Position numbers and translations under genes: made by a program. From positions 1 to 57,445 of the IMG/VR virus record IMGVR_UViG_3300033182_001174: a stretch of DNA of 57,445 nucleotides. One strand, written 5' to 3'. Source of the DNA: a virus. Positions within the stretch are counted from its first letter, which is position 1. The number at the start of each line of letters is the position of its first letter. Positions 4,393-56,120 of this stretch are shown in pieces. A model generated the notes under the pieces. It did not search any database and was not told the DNA's origin. It saw only the letters and a list, made by a program, of their open reading frames with translations.

Positions 4393-4641
4393 ATGGAAAG
4401 AGATAAACTTAAACTGATAGTAAGGAATCTAAAACTGTTGGTTGAAGCTCTTGAATCAGAAGTATATTCAGATCCTGGTGCTTACACTGACAAACGGGAG
4501 AACTTTGATGATCCCATCCCTTACCCTGTAGCAGATTACGACGAAGTATTTAATGACGATGATGACTATGACGATAGTGCGACTAATCGTATAAATAATT
4601 CATACAGATTAGTCAACGACGATGATGGAGATGGATTATAG
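4393..4641 (+). CDS. Small acidic cyanophage protein
   Basis: The 82-residue product has a helical N-terminus (MERDKLKLIVRNLKLLVEAL) and a strongly acidic tail (FNDDDDYDD, VNDDDGDGL). Its start codon abuts a terminator T-tract, so the only GGAGG is 18 bases upstream inside the hairpin. Its last 17 bases overlap the HNH endonuclease gene in another frame. No function recognised. Confidence 0.65.
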   Translation: MERDKLKLIVRNLKLLVEALESEVYSDPGAYTDKRENFDDPIPYPVADYDEVFNDDDDYDDSATNRINNSYRLVNDDDGDGL

Positions 4642-5125
4642 GATACTTGATGAGTATCCTCAATATAAAATATATCCAGATGGAAAAGTTTATTCAATTA
4701 AACTTAAAAAATATATTAACGGGCATAAAAATAAAAGAGGATACTATGCTTTTACCTTGTATGATTTAAAAGGAAAAAGAAAGCATAAGGGACTACATCA
4801 ACTTCTTGCTATGGCATTTATTCCAAATCCAAAGGGATATGAAATAGTCAGGCATCTTGATGATGACAAAGATAATAATTCTTTGTCTAATCTAAAATGG
4901 GGAACAATAAAAGAAAATATTGAAGATGCCATTAGGAATAATGTTTTTAAAATGCCAGACAACTCCAGAAAGTGGTTGGTTAAATCTCCTAGTGGTGATA
5001 TAATAGAAGTTGAAAACCTTTCAAAATTTTGTTCTGAAAATAATCTATCAAAACAAAATTTACATAAAACATACAAGGGTAATAGAAATCATCATAAAGA
5101 TTATAAATTGTTGAAAATGTTATGA
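4625..5125 (+). CDS. Free-standing HNH homing endonuclease (NUMOD4-HNH-NUMOD1)
   Basis: A 166-residue protein with three recognisable parts: a NUMOD4-type N-terminus (YRILDEYPQYKIYPDGKVYS), an HNH core (HQLLAMAFIPNP, VRHLDDDKDNNSLSNLKWGT) and a NUMOD1-type helix-turn-helix end (LSKFCSENNLSKQNLHKTYKG). Such enzymes nick or cut an allele lacking the gene and spread by repair. The usual N before H in the second motif is R here (VRH), but the metal and catalytic positions look intact. DNA is A+T-richer than its neighbours. The start is ATG 4625 (an ATG also precedes it at 4622); the stop overlaps the thyX start as ATGA. Confidence 0.88.
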   Translation: MEMDYRILDEYPQYKIYPDGKVYSIKLKKYINGHKNKRGYYAFTLYDLKGKRKHKGLHQLLAMAFIPNPKGYEIVRHLDDDKDNNSLSNLKWGTIKENIEDAIRNNVFKMPDNSRKWLVKSPSGDIIEVENLSKFCSENNLSKQNLHKTYKGNRNHHKDYKLLKML

Positions 5126-47777: not shown

Positions 47778-48206
47778 ATGGCACATTTCGCTCAATTAGA
47801 CGAAAATAATGTCGTTACTCAAGTGATTGTTGTGAGTAACGATGATACATCAGATTCTAATGGTGTAGAAACTGAAAGCATTGGTGTTGCTTTCTGTCAA
47901 AAACTCCTTGGTGCTGATACCAACTGGAAGCAAACCTCATATAACAACAACTTCCGTGTGAGATACGCAGGTATTGGATACAGTTTTTCAGAAGAACTAA
48001 ATGCATTTATTCCACCACGCCCATTTGATAGTTGGGAACTTCAAGAGGAAACCGCAGATTGGCAGTCCCCTCTTGGACCTGCTCCAGAATTAACTCAAGA
48101 ACAGATTGATTCTAGAAGTTTCTACAGATGGGATGAGGATGCATATCAAGCCGATAACACCACCGGATGGGTTCTAGAAACCCCTCCAGCGCCCGAAGAG
48201 GAGTGA
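47778..48206 (+). CDS. Conserved marine-phage structural protein
   Basis: A 142-residue protein (MAHFAQLDENNVVTQVIVVS, NNFRVRYAGIGYSFSEELNA, FIPPRPFDSWELQEETADWQ). This family is frequent beside tail fibre genes of marine myoviruses; the YAGIGY and PPxPxxSW motifs are characteristic. Precise location in the virion is unknown. Confidence 0.75.
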   Translation: MAHFAQLDENNVVTQVIVVSNDDTSDSNGVETESIGVAFCQKLLGADTNWKQTSYNNNFRVRYAGIGYSFSEELNAFIPPRPFDSWELQEETADWQSPLGPAPELTQEQIDSRSFYRWDEDAYQADNTTGWVLETPPAPEEE

Positions 48207-48218
48207 TAAATAACTATT

Positions 48219-48304
48219 CCTGAATGGGTAGCACTTTTCAGGTGGGAGGGGCAGAAATGCTCCTTTTTTAGTATAAATATATCTGTCACCTGTTTAGAGT
48301 AGAA
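48219..48304 (+). promoter_or_regulatory. Structured leader of GIY-YIG gene 1
   Basis: Nested inverted repeats precede the start at 48305: CCTGAA / TTCAGG (48219-48242), a GGGGCA-GAAA-TGCTCC hairpin followed by T6 (48248-48269, terminator-like) and CAGGTG (48239-48244) with CACCTG (48287-48292). The exact late box TATAAATA (48272-48279) lies in the loop of the outer pair. Confidence 0.6.
48272..48279 (+). promoter_or_regulatory. Late promoter box TATAAATA inside the leader
   Basis: Exact late box. Initiation just downstream would give a transcript lacking the 5' arm and terminator hairpin of the leader, with a short untranslated region before the endonuclease start. Confidence 0.75.
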
Positions 48305-48985
48305 ATGTATTACGTTTATTCGTATTTAAGAGAAGATTATAGTCCTTATTATATTGGAAAAGGTTCTGGCAGAAGAGCATATACAAAAGGACTAAAGGAA
48401 GTTAAACCACCAAAAGACAAATCAAGAGTTAGAATACTCAAAGCAGATTTAGCAGAAAAAGAGGCATTTCTGTTAGAGAAACTTTATATTCTAATGTTCG
48501 GTAGAATTGATTTAGGTACTGGTATTTTAAGAAACAAAAGTGATGGTGGTGATGGTGCTTCTGGTGCAGTAAGAAGTGAAGAGACCAAAGAAAAAATCCG
48601 TCAAGCAAATCTTGGTAAGCAGAGACCTAAAGAAGTTGGAGAAAAGATATCAAAGGCATTATCTGGTAGAAAACTATCAGAAGAGATGAAAGTGAAATTA
48701 AGTGCAATTCGTAAAGGTAGAAAATGTACAGAGGAACATAAGAAAAATGTGAGTGAAGCAAAGAAAGGATTTAAGCATACTGAAGAAGCAAAAAAATTAA
48801 TGGGCATCAATCAACGTAAAAAAGCAAAACCCCATAAACTTATTTTTGTTGATGGTAGAGAATTAATTGTTGATAATATTATGGAATGGTGTGAAACTAA
48901 TCCTTATTCTGATAGTTGTGTTTATCGTGTTAAGAATAGGGGTATTCCTCATAAAGACATTATAAAAGTAGAACTTGTAAATTGA
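48305..48985 (+). CDS. GIY-YIG homing endonuclease 1
   Basis: A 226-residue free-standing endonuclease. The GIY-YIG core is YYVYSYLREDYSPYYIGKGS with downstream catalytic-type EAFLLEKLYILMFGR (the helix Glu) and GILRNKSDGGDG (Asn). It is followed by NUMOD3-like DNA-binding repeats (SEETKEKIRQANLGKQ, SEEMKVKLSAIRKG, TEEHKKNVSEAKKG) and a C-terminal helix-turn-helix (IMEWCETNPYSDSCVYRVKN). It sits between a structural gene and an oxygenase gene, with a structured leader containing a late promoter. Confidence 0.9.
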   Translation: MYYVYSYLREDYSPYYIGKGSGRRAYTKGLKEVKPPKDKSRVRILKADLAEKEAFLLEKLYILMFGRIDLGTGILRNKSDGGDGASGAVRSEETKEKIRQANLGKQRPKEVGEKISKALSGRKLSEEMKVKLSAIRKGRKCTEEHKKNVSEAKKGFKHTEEAKKLMGINQRKKAKPHKLIFVDGRELIVDNIMEWCETNPYSDSCVYRVKNRGIPHKDIIKVELVN

Positions 48986-49010
48986 CACTCTCTCATAACT
49001 CATATATAAT
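48982..49010 (+). promoter_or_regulatory. Perfect sigma70 promoter
   Basis: TTGACA, 17 bases, TATAAT. The -35 overlaps the TGA stop (48983-48985) of the GIY-YIG gene. It drives the oxygenase at 49041 independently of the late transcripts around it. Confidence 0.87.
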
Positions 49011-49040
49011 ATCGTTGAACACATAATAGGAGATTGAACT

Positions 49041-49661
49041 TTGGCTTTTCAGAGCATATGGTTTTTCAGTGACCTCCCAGAAGATATTGTAGATATCATC
49101 GAGAGGGACGTATCTGAAACTTTTGATGAACAAATGGCAGACTCCAGGTTGCACGGAGATGCCCTAAACAAAGATAAAAGAAACTCACAGAATGCTTGGA
49201 TTCCAACGACTCACTGGGTTGGTGGTTTCTTGTGGCACTATATTCAACGTGCAAATCGTGAGAACTTCCTTTATGATCTGCGGTGTATTGATGGAGAATC
49301 AATGCAATACACCCGATATGGTGAAGGTCAGTTCTACGGATGGCATAATGATGCTGGACTTGCGACACAATACAAACCAGTAGCAGTTGGTAATCGTGTT
49401 GATGGTCTGGGACAGGACTTTGTGAATGAGAATATTGAGATGGTTCGTAAACTGTCTTTTGCGATGCAACTCTCTGACCCCGATGATTATGAAGGTGGTA
49501 ACCTGCAACTTCTTGATGAAGCAGGTAACTCTTATATTGCTCCCCGTAAACGTGGTACGATTGTATTGTTTGACTCCCGCACACAACACCGAGTTCTCAA
49601 GGTAACAAAAGGAACCCGTAAGAGTATTGTTGGATGGGTAGTAGGAAAAAGATGGTCTTAA
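49041..49661 (+). CDS. 2-oxoglutarate/Fe(II) dioxygenase 1 (PKHD type)
   Basis: A 206-residue enzyme of the prolyl-4-hydroxylase-like superfamily. The iron site is visible: GWHNDAG (His102, Asp104) and QHRVLKV (His183), with Arg193 as the likely 2-oxoglutarate anchor. EGGNLQLLDEAGN is the characteristic PKHD strand. The substrate is unknown; phage protein or host targets are possible. Start is TTG at 49041, the only start downstream of the AGGAGAT ribosome site giving the expected N-terminus. A consensus promoter lies just upstream. Confidence 0.88.
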   Translation: MAFQSIWFFSDLPEDIVDIIERDVSETFDEQMADSRLHGDALNKDKRNSQNAWIPTTHWVGGFLWHYIQRANRENFLYDLRCIDGESMQYTRYGEGQFYGWHNDAGLATQYKPVAVGNRVDGLGQDFVNENIEMVRKLSFAMQLSDPDDYEGGNLQLLDEAGNSYIAPRKRGTIVLFDSRTQHRVLKVTKGTRKSIVGWVVGKRWS

Positions 49662-49664
49662 ACT

Positions 49665-49695
49665 ACGGTGGAGGTAATATAAATAGTTCCACCGT
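49665..49695 (+). promoter_or_regulatory. Inverted repeat with late box in its loop (leader of GIY-YIG gene 2)
   Basis: Perfect 8-bp arms ACGGTGGA (49665-49672) and TCCACCGT (49688-49695) flank a 15-base loop holding an exact TATAAATA late box (49678-49685). The 3' arm ends 14 bases before the ATG at 49710. Confidence 0.72.
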
Positions 49696-49709
49696 TGTCC
49701 AATAAAAAC

Positions 49710-50375
49710 ATGGAAAATCATTATGTTTATTATTCTTATGAGGAGTTTGGAAGAGGTTACATAGGTTGTAGAACTTGTGAGGCATCTCCAGAAAAAGATA
49801 GTTATATGGGTTCATTTCATGATGAATCTTTTAATCCTTCTCATAAAATAATTCTTAAAACTTTCCCCACAAGGAAAGAAGCTCTTCAAGCAGAAGTTAA
49901 TCTCCATGAGTTTTATCAGGTAGATAAAAATCCACATTTTGCAAACAAATCAAAGCAAAAAACAACAGGATTTTACTACTCAGAGAAAAAGTTTGGTAAA
50001 GAAAATCCATTTTATGGAAAATCTCACTCAGAAGAAACAAAAAAAGTTATTCGCCAACATCAAATAGAAAACAATGGATATGTAAAGAATCGTAGATCTT
50101 ATGAAGGGGAAAACAACCCATTTTATGGAAAAACCCACTCAGAAGAAACAAAAGAACTTCTTAAAGAAAAATCTACTAAAACTTGGGAAGATAAACCTCA
50201 TCCTTGGATAGGTAGAAAACATAGTGAAGAATCTAAAGCAAAGTTTAGAGAAAATAACAAGGGAGAAAAGAATCCAAACTTCGGCAAAAAACATAGTGAG
50301 GAAACACTTATCAAAATGAAAGAAGCAAGAAAACTTTGGTGGGAAAAGAAACGCCAACAACAATCGGAGGCATAA
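49710..50375 (+). CDS. GIY-YIG homing endonuclease 2 (Seg-like)
   Basis: A 221-residue variant GIY-YIG enzyme: HYVYYSYEEFGRGYIGCRTC holds the divergent motif, and EALQAEVNLHEFYQVDKNPH the catalytic helix. Four NUMOD3-type repeats follow (GKENPFYGKSHSEETKKVI, GENNPFYGKTHSEETKELL, HPWIGRKHSEESKAKF, KNPNFGKKHSEETLIKM). The N-terminal domain differs from the other three GIY-YIG proteins and is closer to T4 Seg enzymes. Start ATG 49710 chosen because it begins at the domain; an upstream TTG at 49695 lies inside the hairpin arm. Confidence 0.87.
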   Translation: MENHYVYYSYEEFGRGYIGCRTCEASPEKDSYMGSFHDESFNPSHKIILKTFPTRKEALQAEVNLHEFYQVDKNPHFANKSKQKTTGFYYSEKKFGKENPFYGKSHSEETKKVIRQHQIENNGYVKNRRSYEGENNPFYGKTHSEETKELLKEKSTKTWEDKPHPWIGRKHSEESKAKFRENNKGEKNPNFGKKHSEETLIKMKEARKLWWEKKRQQQSEA

Positions 50376-50378
50376 ATT

Positions 50379-51116
50379 ATGGCAGAACAAATGACAGAAC
50401 TGCAACTGATGATGCAGGAGAAGACCAATACAGGAACTGCCTGGACACGCAATGATAGTTTTGAAAAGAATGGATATCTTGTAGTTAAAAACCTCTGGGA
50501 TCCTGAAGAACTTTATCATCCAGTCCCCGAAGAGAAAGGTCAGTACAACTATTGGGATAAGAACCCTGAACACTTTAATCATGTTCCCGTTGAGCAACAG
50601 GTAGAAGGTTCTACTTCACGATATTGGCACCCACAATATCGTGCGATTCACTCTGGTATTCGTATGAAACTAGAAGAACATCTGGGTCGTAAACTTTATA
50701 ATACCTATTACTATGATAGGTTCTACTATCCTGGACAGGAATTGACGAAACATGCTGATCGTGATGCATGTGAGATTTCTGTGACTGTTCATGTCAGCAC
50801 CAATCTAGAAGGTAAAGATAAAGATTGGCCGATCTGGATTAAAACTCCCGATACTTACACTGATAAGAAGAAGACAACTGTCCTTGTTCCTGGTGAGAAT
50901 CGTTCGGTCGTTCTTCAACCTGGTGATGGCATGATCTACAAAGGATGTGAAAGACCACACTGGCGTGATAAGATGCCTGGATCTCAAAAGAAGAAGAACA
51001 AGAAACTGTTTGGTAAGAAAACTTCTGATACTGAACTTTATTATCATCAGATCTTTTTTCATTATTGCTTGCAAGACGGTCAAAGAGCACACTGTGCATG
51101 GGATAGAGCACGATAA
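50379..51116 (+). CDS. 2-oxoglutarate/Fe(II) dioxygenase 2
   Basis: A 245-residue member of the same superfamily but a different subfamily. YYYDRFYYPGQELTKHADRD gives His125 and Asp127; LQPGDGMIYKGCERPHWRD supplies the distal His194. A basic insertion (SQKKKNKKLFGKK) precedes the last strand. Begins 3 bases after the GIY-YIG stop, with CGGAGG upstream. Substrate unknown. Confidence 0.85.
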   Translation: MAEQMTELQLMMQEKTNTGTAWTRNDSFEKNGYLVVKNLWDPEELYHPVPEEKGQYNYWDKNPEHFNHVPVEQQVEGSTSRYWHPQYRAIHSGIRMKLEEHLGRKLYNTYYYDRFYYPGQELTKHADRDACEISVTVHVSTNLEGKDKDWPIWIKTPDTYTDKKKTTVLVPGENRSVVLQPGDGMIYKGCERPHWRDKMPGSQKKKNKKLFGKKTSDTELYYHQIFFHYCLQDGQRAHCAWDRAR

Positions 51117-51126
51117 ATACTAATAC

Positions 51127-51211
51127 CTGATTGGGTTGCACTTTTCAGGAGGAGGGTGAAAGTCCCTCCTTTTTAATGTGATATAATAAATAATAATGCA
51201 ACCCAAATCAG
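51127..51211 (+). promoter_or_regulatory. Structured leader of GIY-YIG gene 3
   Basis: CTGATTGGGTTGCA (51127-51140) pairs with TGCAACCCAAATCAG (51197-51211), 14 pairs with one bulged base. Inside are an AGGAGGG / CCCTCCT hairpin with a GAAA-containing loop and following T-run (51150-51174, a terminator) and a late-like AATAAATA (51185-51192). The 3' arm ends 7 bases before the ATG at 51219. The 5' part is homologous to 48219-48242 of the first GIY-YIG leader. Confidence 0.7.
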
Positions 51212-51218
51212 TAAAGAA

Positions 51219-51800
51219 ATGTATTACACTTACGCTTATCTGCGTGAAGACGGAACTCCTTATTATATTGGAAAAGGTAGTGGGGATAGAATTAATAAAC
51301 CTCACGGTAGACCTTGCAGCAAACCACCATTAAATAGAAGAATAAAGTTAAAAACAAATCTCACCGAAAAAGAAGCATTTAGACACGAAATCTATATGAT
51401 TGCTGTTTTCGGAAGAAAAGATTTAGGAACGGGTATTCTTTACAATAAAAGTAATGGTGGCGAAGGAAACTCTGGTCTTATAATGTCGCAGGAAAGTAGA
51501 GAAAAGATGAGTAGGGTTGGTAAAGGAAAAAAGAAACCACCAGGACATGGTGAGGCAGTCAGTAGGGCAAGAAAAGGAAAACCAAGTCCTTTAAGAAACA
51601 GAACATTAACAGAAGAACATAAGAGAAAAATTGGTAACTCTCATGCCAAAACATTTCATTTTATAAACCCAGAGGGAGAACTGATAGAAATAAAGGATTT
51701 GCAAAATTACTGCAAAGATAATAAACTATCAAGAGGTTATTTTTATAAACTTATGAGAGGAGAAAGAAATGAGTATCGTGGTTGGAGATTACCGGAATGA
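51219..51800 (+). CDS. GIY-YIG homing endonuclease 3
   Basis: A 193-residue free-standing GIY-YIG enzyme: YYTYAYLREDGTPYYIGKGS, KEAFRHEIYMIAVFGRKDLG with the catalytic Glu helix, GILYNKSNGGEG. One or two NUMOD3-like repeats and a C-terminal NUMOD1-type helix-turn-helix (LQNYCKDNKLSRGYFYKLMR) bind DNA. The N-terminal domain is closely similar to GIY-YIG genes 1 and 4. Its stop overlaps the following oxygenase start (ATGA). Confidence 0.9.
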   Translation: MYYTYAYLREDGTPYYIGKGSGDRINKPHGRPCSKPPLNRRIKLKTNLTEKEAFRHEIYMIAVFGRKDLGTGILYNKSNGGEGNSGLIMSQESREKMSRVGKGKKKPPGHGEAVSRARKGKPSPLRNRTLTEEHKRKIGNSHAKTFHFINPEGELIEIKDLQNYCKDNKLSRGYFYKLMRGERNEYRGWRLPE

Positions 51801-52348
51801 AAGCACCACTTTTTGAATATCCATCATATCAATATCAAATAGACGATTGGTCGTTTAAACGCAAAGGACTCCTCAAAAGAATCAACTCTCAGAAGTTTGT
51901 AAGAACCACTCTGCAAACTTTTGAGACAGATCGTCAAACAAATCGCAAAAGTTATCTTCATTACTTCCAAGACCTCATTCGCCCACAACTCTTTGAGTTT
52001 TGTCAAGAAGCCCAAGTTACTTGTAGTATGACAGATTGTTGGGCAGTTCGTTATCAGAAGGGTGACCAACAGACCATACATAACCACAGAAGTTGGGGAT
52101 TTACTGGTATTCTTTATGTTGACTTTGATCCTAAAGTTCATACTCCTACCTGTTTTGTAGCACCATGGCAAGATCCTAGAAGTGATACAACATCTCTTGC
52201 ATATCCACAGAATGTAAAAGAAGGAACAATCTTTATCTCTCCATCTTATACATTACATTTTGTGCATCCCAATCAAGTAAGAAAATATAGAACGATTATA
52301 TCTTTTGATCTTCTTCCCAAACTTCCAGATCACCAGTCAGTGGACTGA
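51797..52348 (+). CDS. 2-oxoglutarate/Fe(II) dioxygenase-like protein 3
   Basis: A 183-residue protein of the 2OG-Fe(II)_Oxy_5-like type. TDCWAVRYQKGDQQTIHNHR carries an H-x-H (His95, His97) in place of H-x-D, then WGFTGILYVDFD, and EGTIFISPSYTLHFVHPNQV supplies His154 or His157, with Arg165 as cosubstrate anchor. Whether the second position binds iron is unclear. Start is the ATGA overlap at 51797; the in-frame ATG at 51782 would lie deeper in the previous gene. Confidence 0.75.
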   Translation: MKAPLFEYPSYQYQIDDWSFKRKGLLKRINSQKFVRTTLQTFETDRQTNRKSYLHYFQDLIRPQLFEFCQEAQVTCSMTDCWAVRYQKGDQQTIHNHRSWGFTGILYVDFDPKVHTPTCFVAPWQDPRSDTTSLAYPQNVKEGTIFISPSYTLHFVHPNQVRKYRTIISFDLLPKLPDHQSVD

Positions 52349-52361
52349 GTGGTCTTTTTTT
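52332..52361 (+). terminator. Terminator overlapping the oxygenase 3 stop
   Basis: ACCAGTCAG / CTGAGTGGT with a TGGA loop (one G-G mismatch) then seven T residues. The stop codon of oxygenase 3 is inside the hairpin. Confidence 0.65.
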
Positions 52362-52392
52362 ATGTGCTAAATAACTAGAAAGAAGTTGTGCA

Positions 52393-52797
52393 ATGACGAG
52401 AGCACGGAGTTTAGCAAGATTAGCTAATTCAAATGCATTTACTGTTAGTACTGACTTAAATGTCGGTGTTAATTCAACTTCTCCTGTTGAAAAACTGAAC
52501 GTCGTTGGTGTTGTCAGTGCAACTAGTTTTTATGGTGATGGTAGTGAACTGAGTGGAGTTACTGGACTGGGAACTGCATTATCCAATTCTGGTCCTACAA
52601 ATTTCTTTTACTACGTAAACAATGATCTCAATATCACAGAAACCACCACACTTGATGTGCCTAGCAGTGCAACATTAAGTGCCGATGGGTTCCGTGTTGC
52701 ATATACAAACTATTCAAATATCATCGTTGATGATAGTTATGACTTAATTATTTCTGATGGTGATGAATTAGTTCCTGATGTTTTATCTTTATCATAA
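52393..52797 (+). CDS. Short tail fibre protein
   Basis: A 134-residue fibre fragment-like protein (MTRARSLARLANSNAFTVST, LNVVGVVSATSFYGDGSELS) with a beta C-terminal domain (TTTLDVPSSATLSADGFRVA). The MTRARSLARLAN start is common in cyanophage fibre genes. Translation probably starts after a late transcript from CTAAATAA near 52368. Confidence 0.68.
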   Translation: MTRARSLARLANSNAFTVSTDLNVGVNSTSPVEKLNVVGVVSATSFYGDGSELSGVTGLGTALSNSGPTNFFYYVNNDLNITETTTLDVPSSATLSADGFRVAYTNYSNIIVDDSYDLIISDGDELVPDVLSLS

Positions 52798-52799
52798 TC

Positions 52800-52807
52800 T
52801 ATAAATA
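52800..52807 (+). promoter_or_regulatory. Late promoter box TATAAATA
   Basis: Exact late box 2 bases after the preceding stop and 20 bases before the ATG at 52828. Confidence 0.75.
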
Positions 52808-52827
52808 AGTAAAAAGATCCTAGAGTA

Positions 52828-53643
52828 ATGTCAAGAATTAGAGCCGACAAATTTGTAGATAGGGCAGCGACTGGTGCTCCAGAGGTTACCTATGGTATTG
52901 AAGTTCCTGTTGGATATGGAGTCACTGGTGATGGTGGTATTAACATTGCTGGTGTTGTCACTGCTGCAAGTTTTTCAGGTGCTGCCACTGGATTATCTGG
53001 CACTCCAGACATCACTGTTAGAAATATTGTTGGTGTTGCTGCTACTTTTAGTGGAACTGTTTCTTATGAGGATGTAACTAATATTGATGCAGTTGGAATC
53101 GTTACCTCACAATCTGGAGTTAGAGTTGTCGGTGGTGGATTATCAGTCACCAGTGGGGCATCAAGATTTAGAGGTGTTATTGAAAACGTTGCTGTTGCAT
53201 CAACCCACTTAAGTGGTGCAGGAATGGTGCTTGAAATGGATGTTGCAGAAGCAACTACATTTACATTTGGGAATACTGGTGGTAATATCGGTATTATTTC
53301 ATTCAGAAATATGCCTGCAGATGAGGCAAATGGAACAACAATTACTCTAATTCATACGCAAAATTCTTCAACACCTTCGGGAGTCGGCAACACAACTGCT
53401 GCGACAGGTATTGGAACATATATTCACATTTCACCTACTGTGGGTGGAACAATTCAGACAGGAATTGACACAACAGGTAATATTGGATCTGCGTCTACTG
53501 TAACATTATCTGAAACTGCATCAGATAAGGATTTTGTTTCATTCTTTATTCATTACACTGGTGGTGGTGCAGGAGTTGCAACATGTTTCCAAACTTACGT
53601 CACTAAGAACGGTAACTTCCGTCAGGGCAACATAGGTGTTTGA
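52828..53643 (+). CDS. Tail fibre protein
   Basis: A 271-residue fibre protein (MSRIRADKFVDRAATGAPEV). Shaft repeats (GVVTAASFSGAATGLSGTPD, VTNIDAVGIVTSQSGVRVVG) are followed by a beta-sandwich C-terminal domain (GNIGIISFRNMPADEANGTT, FVSFFIHYTGGGAGVATCFQ). The VTNxDSxGIVTxxxG phrase is also present in the fibre at 44692, showing a shared module. Confidence 0.72.
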   Translation: MSRIRADKFVDRAATGAPEVTYGIEVPVGYGVTGDGGINIAGVVTAASFSGAATGLSGTPDITVRNIVGVAATFSGTVSYEDVTNIDAVGIVTSQSGVRVVGGGLSVTSGASRFRGVIENVAVASTHLSGAGMVLEMDVAEATTFTFGNTGGNIGIISFRNMPADEANGTTITLIHTQNSSTPSGVGNTTAATGIGTYIHISPTVGGTIQTGIDTTGNIGSASTVTLSETASDKDFVSFFIHYTGGGAGVATCFQTYVTKNGNFRQGNIGV

Positions 53644-53658
53644 TAGGAGGTAACTAGG

Positions 53659-54762
53659 ATGAGTATTTTTAAAGATTTTTTTGTAAAACAAAAACCAGTA
53701 TTTACTGGACTTAAATTTGGTTTTGGTGCTGGTGGTGGTGGTGCGGGAGGTCCTGCACCAATCAGTGCTTCAGGTGGTAACATTGCTGATGCACTAGAAC
53801 CAGGAAATGGATATAAGTACCATACATTTGGAACACCAGGCACTTTTACTGTTACTGGTGGACCAAACACAATTGAGGTATTAGTTGTTGCTGGTGGAGG
53901 TGGTGGATCAAAAGCTAATAATATCGCTTCTGGTGGTGCTGGTGCTGGTGGTGTTGTTCATGCTACATCCTACGTTGTAACAGCAGGAACGTATGATGTA
54001 TCAGTTGGTGATGGTGGGGCAGGTGGTGATGGCACCACCACTGCTGGATCCAATGGAGGGGATTCATATTTTGGAGCAGCACCAGTAAGAATAACTGCAA
54101 AAGGTGGTGGTGGTACTGGACTTTGGCCTGGAACCGGTGCGAGCACTGGTGGATCAGGTGGTGGTGGAACAGGAACCACTGCAACTTACCCATGGCCAGC
54201 AGCAGTAATTGCTGGAAAAGCAGCAACCCAAGGGGATGAAACTCACCCAGGAGCACCAGGAACTATCACTAATTACGGAAACCCAGGTGGAAATGGTGGT
54301 GGTGGTGATGCTGCTGGTGGTGGAGCACCCGATGCTTATCTGTCTGGTGGTGCCGGTGGTGGTGCTGGTACTGCTGGTGATAATGGTGGGGGCGACGGCA
54401 CCAGACCTAACGGTGGTGATGGACAACCATTCCCACAATTTGCATATCCATTATGTTTCCCTTCACCATATCTTCCAGGATTTGCTACACCAAGTACTCC
54501 AATTGCTGGATATACAGCTTCACCTACTTCTGATCATTATGGTGGTGGTGGAGGTGGCGGTAAGCACCGTGCTGGCAGCGGAAATGCTCAAACAGGCACT
54601 GGTGCGGGTGGCATCGGCGGTGGTGGCGGTGGAGGTAATGGTCAACCAACTCATTCTTTTAGTGGATTAGATTATCTTGGTGGTGGTGCAGGAGACTCAG
54701 CAGGATATGAGACCACCGCACGCACTGGTGGAAAAGGTGTTGTTATTGTAAGATACACATAG
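53659..54762 (+). CDS. Glycine-rich tail adhesin
   Basis: A 367-residue relative of the adhesin at 45866. After a short N-terminus (MSIFKDFFVKQKPVFTGLKF), a beta motif (TIEVLVVAGGGGGSKANNIA) leads into GGGG-x arrays with aromatic/proline loops (FPQFAYPLCFPSPYLPGFAT) and the end motif GKGVVIVRYT. Likely a receptor-binding tip with polyglycine architecture. RBS AGGAGG precedes the ATG. Confidence 0.72.
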   Translation: MSIFKDFFVKQKPVFTGLKFGFGAGGGGAGGPAPISASGGNIADALEPGNGYKYHTFGTPGTFTVTGGPNTIEVLVVAGGGGGSKANNIASGGAGAGGVVHATSYVVTAGTYDVSVGDGGAGGDGTTTAGSNGGDSYFGAAPVRITAKGGGGTGLWPGTGASTGGSGGGGTGTTATYPWPAAVIAGKAATQGDETHPGAPGTITNYGNPGGNGGGGDAAGGGAPDAYLSGGAGGGAGTAGDNGGGDGTRPNGGDGQPFPQFAYPLCFPSPYLPGFATPSTPIAGYTASPTSDHYGGGGGGGKHRAGSGNAQTGTGAGGIGGGGGGGNGQPTHSFSGLDYLGGGAGDSAGYETTARTGGKGVVIVRYT

Positions 54763-54781
54763 TAATTAAATTATTTTTACA

Positions 54782-55288
54782 ATGGAATTGAATATTATTG
54801 ATGATTTTTTATCACATGAAGATCATCGTCAACTAAAAAATTTAATAGTGTTTAACCAAAACTTCCCTTTGCATTTTCAGAGAGAAGTTTCTGGTGAGAA
54901 GGTAAAACGTGAAAATTGGGATTGGTATGCTACTCATACCTTTTATCACCAAGATCATCCATGCAGCCCATATGCGAATGACATTTGTAATTACTTTATT
55001 CCTAAGTTTGTGAAAATGGATATTTTTAAATCTCTGATGAGAATTAGAGTTAATTTTTATCCATACACCAATGAAATAAAAGAACATGAACCACATATTG
55101 ACTACAAGTTTTCACACCATGCTGCAATTTATTGTTTAAATACTTGTGATGGTTTTACAAGGATAGGTAGAGAAAAAGTTAAGAGTGTTGCTAACAGAAT
55201 GTATTTCTTTGATGGAAGTGTAGAACACAATTCATCAACAACATCAGATAATGCGGGAAGATACAATATAAACTTTAACTTCTTGTAG
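54782..55288 (+). CDS. 2-oxoglutarate/Fe(II) dioxygenase 4
   Basis: A 168-residue enzyme with MRIRVNFYPYTNEIKEHEPH then HIDYKF (His105, Asp107), NRMYFFDGSVEHNSS (His149) and GRYNINFNF (Arg160), a complete 2OG/Fe(II) facial triad and anchor. It resembles the short marine-phage prolyl-hydroxylase-like group found beside fibre genes. Substrate unknown. Confidence 0.85.
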   Translation: MELNIIDDFLSHEDHRQLKNLIVFNQNFPLHFQREVSGEKVKRENWDWYATHTFYHQDHPCSPYANDICNYFIPKFVKMDIFKSLMRIRVNFYPYTNEIKEHEPHIDYKFSHHAAIYCLNTCDGFTRIGREKVKSVANRMYFFDGSVEHNSSTTSDNAGRYNINFNFL

Positions 55289-55312
55289 ACACTCCATAAA
55301 CCGTCCACTGAG

Positions 55313-55338
55313 CCTCACAGAACCCTCTGTGAGGTTTT
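55313..55338 (+). terminator. Rho-independent terminator
   Basis: A perfect 9-bp stem CCTCACAGA / TCTGTGAGG with an ACCC loop followed by TTTTA, 25 bases after the oxygenase 4 stop. Confidence 0.8.
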
Positions 55339-55368
55339 ATAGTATCTGCATACAACACACAGGGGGGT

Positions 55369-55467
55369 ATGACTGCCACTCACAAGTTAATCTTCATTGC
55401 ATCGTTCTTCTGGTTCATGAACTGGGCTCAAAGAATTTGTTATCTTGTATTTTCAAATGTTCTCTAA
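55369..55467 (+). CDS. Putative 32-residue membrane peptide
   Basis: MTATHKLIFIASFFWFMNWA then QRICYLVFSNVL, a hydrophobic single helix. AGGGGGG lies just upstream but very close to the ATG. The rest of the 55289-55553 gap holds only the terminator and the leader of GIY-YIG gene 4. Low confidence because of its size. Confidence 0.3.
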   Translation: MTATHKLIFIASFFWFMNWAQRICYLVFSNVL

Positions 55468-55477
55468 ATACAGATGC

Positions 55478-55547
55478 TTGACTGTGGTTATTCAAGCAAG
55501 GGGGGGTGGAAACACCCTCCACCATAAATAATACATACCACAGTCAA
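55478..55547 (+). promoter_or_regulatory. Structured leader of GIY-YIG gene 4
   Basis: Perfect 11-bp arms TTGACTGTGGT (55478-55488) and ACCACAGTCAA (55537-55547) enclose a GGGGGGTG-GAAA-CACCCTCC hairpin (55501-55520) and the late-like CATAAATA (55523-55530). The 3' arm ends 6 bases before the ATG at 55554. Confidence 0.7.
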
Positions 55548-55553
55548 AGCAGT

Positions 55554-56120
55554 ATGAATAACTATTATACTTACGCTTATTTGCGTGAGGATGGAACTCC
55601 TTATTACATCGGCAAGGGTGTCGGAAGGAGAGTCCATCATAAAAATCACTGTTTACCAATTCCCCCTAAAGATAGGATATTGATGCTTAAGCAGAACCTT
55701 TCAGAGGATGATGCGTTCAAACATGAAATCTATATGATTAGTGTGCTTGGACGTAAAGATAAGGGAACAGGTATGCTAAGAAATCTTACAGATGGTGGAG
55801 AAGGAACATCCGGCAACATACTGTCAGATGAAACTAAAAGAAAAATAGGAACAGCAAACAGTGGACAGAACAACGGAATGTATGGAAAGTCCGGCGAGAG
55901 CAACCCCTTCTATGGGAAACATCACACAGATGATTTCAAACAGCAAAAAAGTAGGGAGGTAAAAGAGCACTGGAAAAAGAACCCTCACCCCTGGATAGGT
56001 AGAAAGCACTCCCCAGAAACCATTGAAAAAATTAGACAGACAAAACTTGGTAGAAAACTCTCCCCAGAACATAAGGAGAAAATAAGACAGTCTATGTTGA
56101 AACGCAATGCTCTATCTTGA
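55554..56120 (+). CDS. GIY-YIG homing endonuclease 4
   Basis: A 188-residue GIY-YIG enzyme: NYYTYAYLREDGTPYYIGKG, DAFKHEIYMISVLGRKDKGT, GMLRNLTDGGEG, then NUMOD3 repeats (GKSGESNPFYGKHHTDDFKQ, HPWIGRKHSPETIEKIRQ, SPEHKEKIRQSMLKR). The N-terminal domain is very close to gene 3 at 51219 while the repeats resemble gene 2 at 49710. Start is ATG 55554, right after the leader hairpin; longer N-terminal reading would cross the leader. Confidence 0.9.
   Translation: MNNYYTYAYLREDGTPYYIGKGVGRRVHHKNHCLPIPPKDRILMLKQNLSEDDAFKHEIYMISVLGRKDKGTGMLRNLTDGGEGTSGNILSDETKRKIGTANSGQNNGMYGKSGESNPFYGKHHTDDFKQQKSREVKEHWKKNPHPWIGRKHSPETIEKIRQTKLGRKLSPEHKEKIRQSMLKRNALS

Follow-up and report, generated by a model that had tools for sequence, protein, structure and literature searches.

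Free-standing homing endonucleases are common in T4-like phages, and self-restraint is known for only a few genes, in T4 and Aeh1. The leaders of I-TevI, I-TevII, I-TevIII and segB of T4 and of mobE of Aeh1 form hairpins with an internal late promoter, and pairing of the arms blocks translation of the longer transcripts (PMC2988022). We have analysed a 57,445-base virus record (IMG/VR record IMGVR_UViG_3300033182_001174, hereafter the window), a fragment of a T4-like cyanophage whose nearest relatives by DNA are the Synechococcus phages Bellamy and S-SM2. Five of its genes, four of GIY-YIG type starting at 48305, 49710, 51219 and 55554 and one of HNH type starting at 4622, are assigned to homing-endonuclease-type nucleases. 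Their leaders resemble those of T4 and Aeh1 in that a homing endonuclease gene is preceded by an inverted repeat ahead of its start codon, and in that the loop holds a late promoter from which transcripts would lack the 5' arm (PMC2988022), and we propose that pairing blocks translation here in the same way.

We designate the late box in the loop P2. In the main class of leader (class A) a second late-type box, P1, lies just upstream of the 5' arm, and a local hairpin and a terminator-like hairpin are found between the two boxes. We incline, with somewhat more conviction than doubt, to the view that such a leader is a mobile RNA brake on its own endonuclease, the 5' arm acting as antisense to the 3' (sense) arm, with fold-back in cis as a back-up. 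The first-pass annotation of the window, made from the sequence alone, had described a late promoter within a start-blocking hairpin at all four GIY-YIG genes and had likened it to I-TevI; it had noticed something real and understated it.

Selection on the pairing of the arms

A set of 257 loci was collected from IMG/VR by protein search, with no selection on the leader, and 109 dereplicated leaders with a P2 box from it form the comparison set. In this set the upstream sequence pairs with its own leader at -21.7 kcal/mol, compared with -12.6 kcal/mol (standard deviation 3.8) when partners are swapped. With windows anchored on P1 and P2 only, complementarity being unused, the mean arm score is 28.4 for cognate and 13.4 for swapped partners, and a score of at least 24 is reached by 89% of the former and 2.8% of the latter; the row for the box at 51247 of phage S-SRM01, which is the P1 of the 51314 leader, was disregarded. 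Within one genome (the window or S-SRM01) the best match of each correctly placed leader is its own antisense.

Co-variation was scored on promoter-anchored windows because whole-leader alignment with MAFFT misplaces the variable arms. The largest group of equal spacing comprises 23 leaders, chosen for their common arm position. The five pairs with the highest mutual information lie on one anti-diagonal, changes occur on both sides at 10 of the 13 arm pairs, and co-variation scores 0.69, compared with 0.20 when shuffled and at most 0.196 when slid; 92.3% of the cells pair, although these come from related sequences and are not independent events, which, with the prior choice of leaders by arm position, tempers this evidence. 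The arm sequences thus vary between phages yet co-vary, and compensatory change, the point at which the first-pass annotation saw that its proposal might fail, is present in the leaders of related phages. Inside the helices the non-Watson-Crick pairs are 32 G·U and no A·C. The occurrence of G·U without A·C points to selection on RNA read in the same direction as the gene (+ strand) and not on a DNA palindrome. From these comparisons we regard selection on arm pairing at the RNA level as nearly certain.

Chance inverted repeats in AT-rich DNA are ruled out by the swaps, by shuffles and by scans of late boxes over whole genomes. When the 18 boxes of the window that match NATAAATA, the cyanophage late consensus (PMC2984593), are ranked by arm score, the top five are the five homing endonuclease leaders. 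In the 240-kb genome of S-SRM01 an arm score of at least 24 is found at 9 of 97 late boxes, and all nine (eight distinct leaders) precede homing-type nucleases of GIY-YIG, HNH-like or Endonuclease VII-like kind. The association has P = 2.7e-5 with two of the nine scored as non-homing, and a smaller value once these are corrected; the two looked non-homing because the annotation begins their genes ahead of the ATG that follows P2. The annotated starts of gp075 (L266 1291) and gp297 (L268 42466) fall within the leader, the homing-gene ATGs after P2 being at record positions 51348 and 192520, respectively. In the T4 control none of 65 late boxes attains an arm score of 24; the same parser recovers gene e of T4, which is known to be hairpin-controlled.

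Anatomy of the leaders

The strong-arm leaders sort into three classes, A (72 leaders), B (12) and C (4 in the strong set). In class A the order is P1, a spacer of about 5 nt, a local hairpin with the antisense in its loop, a terminator, P2, the sense arm and the ATG. P1 reads N[AC]TAAATA in 68 of the 72 and is tightly spaced, the arm starting mostly 6-7 nucleotides (nt) past the box. A search blind to the arms, over 45-110 nt above P2, found a P1-like box in 72 of the 109 leaders and in 4.2% of shuffles, and the distances from P1 to P2 cluster at 62-74 nt. Between the arms of 64 of the 72 class A leaders (2.8% when shuffled) there is a terminator-like hairpin with a T-rich tail, its loop most often being GAAA or UUCG.

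Late transcription of the T4 type starts about 6 nt after the box. In class A the start of the sense arm is mostly 3-5 nt past P2 and close to this expected start, and the internal box is indeed placed, as first described, to give a transcript that would have the 3' arm at its 5' end. The ATG follows mostly 22-28 nt after P2, and mostly 5-16 nt separate it from the end of the helix core. With the helix at roughly -25 to -7 the start codon lies outside, and Shine-Dalgarno sequences are weak or absent, unlike in T4; what the helix overlaps is the initiation region, and the description as start-blocking is not supported as worded.

Class B leaders have one long terminator-like hairpin with the antisense in its apical loop, followed by P2 and then by a sense arm that usually extends to the ATG; no clear P1 is seen. 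A conserved frame, GGGCAGCAAC...GTTGCGTAAGTCCC, surrounds a variable antisense loop that is complementary up to the ATG (loci L049, L050, L052, L074, L075, L115, L134, L154, L160 and L215; also L275). Class B is possibly a second, independent solution. Class C is a short hairpin that encloses P2 only, as at 49710. A further arrangement is seen at S-SRM01 gp253 (L268 12200-12245), where a late box is followed by a hairpin, AAGTATGGTTAGTAACCATACTT, right before the ATG and within the P2 transcript.

A predicted small antisense RNA

The RNA predicted to run from P1 to the terminator is 52-64 nt long. Since the terminator precedes the gene, the sole product of P1 should be this short RNA, and most transcripts from upstream should stop before the 3' arm. 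The stem of its 5' hairpin is kept as pairing, with a score across 11 stem 5-mers of 14.0 for own and 8.8 for swapped partners, and stem sequences differ among leaders (CCTGA/TCAGG, GCTTA/TAAGC, GTCTGT/ACGGAC and others). This local hairpin competes with the arm pairing, and folding in cis has no need of it. The antisense has an unpaired fraction of 0.72, compared with 0.31 in the rest of the predicted small RNA (sRNA), and that of the 5' end of the predicted messenger RNA (mRNA) is 0.74. The net predicted binding of the two RNAs is -14.2 kcal/mol for cognate and -3.4 kcal/mol for swapped partners. The separate promoter and terminator of the antisense RNA are recognised by consensus only, at the class A frequencies given above.

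We envisage that P1, as a late-type promoter, would start an RNA of about 55 nt, the 5' hairpin loop of which would display about 11-17 nt of antisense to the 5'-terminal stretch of the endonuclease mRNA. This RNA would end at the inner G/C hairpin. P2, likewise late-type and inside the interval, would start the endonuclease mRNA at or beside the sense arm, giving a short and translatable 5' untranslated region (UTR). The sRNA would pair with this UTR in trans and exclude ribosomes. Read-through of the terminator, whether the transcript had started at P1 or in genes upstream, would allow the arms to pair within one molecule and silence the gene in cis. Because both promoters are on the same DNA, brake and message would rise together and scale with gene copy number, holding nuclease output low. 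Class C (49710 and HNH 4622) would act by fold-back in cis alone, like T4 I-TevI.

That leader RNA matching the start of the gene's own message keeps nuclease production low is probably correct. We put at even chances the wider proposal of a transferable cassette common to unrelated families of cyanophage homing endonucleases, specifying a dedicated same-strand antisense sRNA that has a late promoter and a terminator to itself and acts in trans to repress the nuclease next to it, as an antitoxin-like brake private to each copy and travelling with the mobile gene.

Several points weigh against the brake as envisaged. The promoters and terminators are consensus matches and the transcripts are predicted. 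At 55554 P1 reads TCTAAATA and the inner hairpin has no T-run, the arm pairing at 48305 is weak and the 12 class B leaders have no clear late box in front. Fold-back in cis alone would likewise conserve the arms. The relatives L270, L272 and L273 are without any such leader, which is therefore not essential.

Alternative explanations

The alternative that survives best, although we consider it unlikely, is fold-back in cis only, as for T4 I-TevI and segB and Aeh1 mobE: upstream transcripts with both arms would be untranslated, P2 transcripts would be translated, and P1 and the terminator would serve as insulation. The arm co-variation and the G·U bias are expected here as well. Class C leaders (49710, HNH 4622 and S-SRM01 gp207, gp048 and gp225) consist of arms and P2 without terminator or P1, and in phage S-B68 the leader separates the DNA polymerase gene from the UvsX gene, a setting in which early read-through might be of consequence. 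Fold-back alone, however, leaves unneeded both a conserved P1 at fixed spacing, whose only product stops at the terminator, and a conserved local hairpin that competes with the arms. The likeness to I-TevI holds well at 49710 and HNH 4622 but not for the main class, with its own P1 and a terminator in the loop. Nor would early/late timing of the I-TevI kind explain it: the GIY-YIG genes of the window lie inside or beside a late tail-fibre region, where such timing would give no on/off difference because upstream transcription would itself be late, and P1 is late-type too.

It is also conceivable, but improbable, that the sRNA, once paired with the mRNA 5' end, stabilizes or activates the message, by protection from RNase, with no block to translation. 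The duplex would sit at the very start of the predicted mRNA, and there is a precedent in ISPpu9, in which an antisense RNA, Asr9, raises translation of the transposase (PMC8450116). ISPpu9, however, works by opening an inhibitory structure, whereas the mRNA 5' end is here predicted to be open. Most class A duplexes leave just 5-9 nt before the ATG and enter the region normally covered by a 30S subunit, and the class B duplex usually reaches the ATG itself.

Although the I-TevI protein has an operator of its own, which overlaps the late promoter of its gene (PMC2988022), it is scarcely credible that the inverted repeat is a DNA-level operator or homing-site-like sequence through which the endonuclease autorepresses its promoter, given arms some 60 bp apart with a terminator between them, near-identical leaders in front of unrelated nucleases, and the asymmetry between G·U and A·C, which is unpredicted for a DNA palindrome and on which we reject such a palindrome or a protein operator.

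Mobility and distribution

The mobile character of the proposed brake is seen at 51219. An empty site is present in Bellamy, where ...GAGCACG is followed directly by ATGAAGGCACC; in the window ...GAGCACG is followed by ATAAATACTAATACCTG..., the endonuclease and ...ACCGGA, and then by ATGAAAGCACC. Compared with Bellamy, P1, the arms, the terminator, P2 and the gene are inserted as one unit, and the inserted P1 box supplies the upstream gene with a new TAA stop. That P1 is a left-over box of the upstream gene is disfavoured, since it lies inside this insertion and the leader homology across families begins at P1. An empty-site relative was looked for but not found for S-B68 and S-CREM2.

An unrelated HNH-type gene of S-SRM01 is preceded by a similar leader (86% over 51113-51189, the homology starting from P1), and the same leader type is found on GIY-YIG, HNH and Endonuclease VII-type genes; the restriction to GIY-YIG genes in the first description was too narrow. 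Cultured carriers are S-SRM01, S-B68, B23, S-CREM2 and MC09, and Sf-CH5 with class B; ACG-2014f, S-N03 and RN05-S have no such leader at the site examined. A blastn search with the S-SRM01 leader at 62425-62520 was uninformative, giving mainly short coliphage matches of low significance, several of them annotated terminators. Rfam gave no RNA family in the window leaders, with one sub-threshold microRNA match in glycine-rich coding sequence, and the S-SRM01 leaders in 1-100000 were unmatched.

Two observations concern related genes. GIY-YIG/NUMOD3-type genes at L266 12515, L275 692 and L276 695 are labelled 'translation initiation factor 2', a likely mis-annotation. At S-SRM01 gp319-gp321 (L269 7378-9040) a homing endonuclease gene splits psbA, consistent with a group I intron.

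The leaders of the window

All four GIY-YIG genes have the GIY-YIG sequence and NUMOD3 (PF07460), with a TIGR01453 match below the cutoff; 48305, 51219 and 55554 form one subfamily and 49710 belongs to another. HNH 4622 follows the 3' end of one gene and is followed by another that starts at 5122. Coordinates are given in Table 1.

Table 1. Positions in the window of the nuclease genes and of the elements of their leaders.
Feature	Position	Strand	Basis
51219 cassette: P1 late box GATAAATA; its TAA doubles as stop of upstream gene 50379-51116	51112..51119	+	consensus match
51219 cassette: local hairpin CCTGA/TCAGG, antisense arm (51127-51140) in loop	51126..51149	+	sequence, folding
51219 cassette: terminator-like hairpin AGGAGGG-TGAAAGT-CCCTCCT and T-run	51150..51174	+	sequence, folding
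51219 cassette: P2 late box AATAAATA	51185..51192	+	consensus match
51219 cassette: sense (3') arm TGCAACCCAAATCAG, 5' end of predicted P2 mRNA	51197..51211	+	pairing
GIY-YIG/NUMOD3 homing endonuclease gene	51219..51800	+	sequence, domain matches
48305 cassette: P1 late box GATAAATA	48205..48212	+	consensus match
48305 cassette: local hairpin CCTGAA/TTCAGG; antisense arm 48220-48233, poor match to leader	48219..48242	+	sequence, folding
48305 cassette: terminator-like hairpin, GAAA loop and T-run	48244..48269	+	sequence, folding
48305 cassette: P2 late box TATAAATA	48272..48279	+	consensus match
48305 cassette: sense arm TGTCACCTGTTTAG, weak (10 contiguous pairs including three G·U)	48284..48297	+	pairing
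GIY-YIG/NUMOD3 homing endonuclease gene	48305..48985	+	sequence, domain matches
55554 cassette: P1-like box TCTAAATA, C variant outside published NATAAATA consensus	55463..55470	+	consensus comparison
55554 cassette: local hairpin TGCTTGA/TCAAGCA with antisense arm 55476-55488	55475..55498	+	sequence, folding
55554 cassette: G/C hairpin, GAAA loop, no T-run (poor terminator)	55501..55520	+	sequence, folding
55554 cassette: P2 late box CATAAATA	55523..55530	+	consensus match
55554 cassette: sense arm ACCACAGTCAAAGC	55537..55550	+	pairing
GIY-YIG/NUMOD3 homing endonuclease gene	55554..56120	+	sequence, domain matches
Class C leader of 49710: 8-bp hairpin ACGGTGGA/TCCACCGT, late box TATAAATA (49678-49685) in loop	49665..49695	+	sequence, folding
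GIY-YIG/NUMOD3 homing endonuclease gene, other subfamily	49710..50375	+	sequence, domain matches
Class C leader of HNH 4622: GACTAATC/GATTAGTC around late box TATAAATA (4590-4597)	4581..4614	+	box/arm scan
HNH_3 endonuclease gene, behind class C hairpin	4622..5125	+	domain match

A P2 box matching the consensus lies within the loop of an inverted repeat in all five cases, the arms at 48305 being weak; the late boxes first reported at 48272, 49678, 51185 and 55523 are all present. The antisense arm CTGATTGGGTTGCA at 51219 pairs with its sense arm with one bulged A, and GCTTGACTGTGGT at 55554 pairs through a core of 11 base pairs. The arms at 49710 are 49665-49672 and 49688-49695; those at HNH 4622, 4581-4588 and 4607-4614, form an 8-bp hairpin within the last part of the reading frame upstream. 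Neither of these two leaders has a terminator or a P1.

The hairpins described at the four GIY-YIG genes fared unequally, and the claim for all four went too far. At 49710, 51219 and 55554 the arm helices are far above chance and form part of the minimum-energy fold of the read-through RNA. At 48305 a 6-bp CAGGTG/CACCTG repeat is present, with 10 contiguous pairs instead at the position homologous to the other leaders, and neither pairing appears in the predicted fold. Predicted binding of sRNA to mRNA is -3.1 kcal/mol at 48305, -14.0 kcal/mol at 51219 and -13.8 kcal/mol at 55554. The inner G/C hairpins of these three loops, with a T-run at 48305 and 51219 only, are as first reported and resemble intrinsic terminators. 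The first-pass annotation had not listed the P1 or P1-like box at these three genes, the competing local hairpin or HNH 4622.

Implications and comparison with known systems

The leaders suggest a specific and testable answer for cyanophages to how homing endonucleases are restrained: a mobile leader with its own promoters, terminator and antisense, shared by three kinds of nuclease and absent from Rfam. If this is true, homing endonucleases join the mobile enzymes restrained by dedicated antisense RNAs, many naturally orthogonal sRNA-target pairs become available, and the leader pattern would find homing genes now annotated as 'hypothetical' or 'translation initiation factor 2'.

CfrI of cyanophage S-PM2, of about 225 nt, is antisense across psbA and an endonuclease gene (PMC2984593); it shares the link between cyanophage RNA and homing endonucleases but differs in architecture. 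The T4 arms are short, with parser scores of 14-15 for I-TevI, I-TevII, I-TevIII and segB, whereas class A arms are of 11-17 nt. T4 leaders sequester the Shine-Dalgarno sequence (PMC2988022); class A adds the upstream late-type box, the antisense-exposing hairpin and the terminator between the arms, and neither P1 nor a loop terminator was seen in the T4 leaders compared.

Type I toxin-antitoxin loci with adjacent sRNAs include ZorO-OrzO, TisB-IstR and ShoB-OhsC (PMC3919570). Similarly, the cyanophage sRNA gene would lie beside its target, with short, pair-specific and 5'-proximal complementarity to the 5' UTR; OrzO has 18 nt of complementarity, of which 15 continuous pairs suffice (PMC3919570). 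In type I loci, however, a divergent sRNA is directed at a small hydrophobic toxin, whereas in the cyanophage leaders the two are in tandem on the same strand, the target is a nuclease and read-through RNA can fold in cis. The cassette would work like, but is not, a type I system, since its targets are nuclease-type proteins (167-226 amino acids in the window).

The transposase of IS10 is under antisense control by RNA-OUT, which is encoded on the other strand of the same region. The parallel with ISPpu9, Asr9/Ssr9 (PMC8450116), is likewise that of a mobile element controlling its own enzyme through RNA pairing to the 5' UTR. Asr9 is transcribed from the opposite strand, whereas the cyanophage antisense is a same-strand inverted copy with a putative promoter and terminator of its own.

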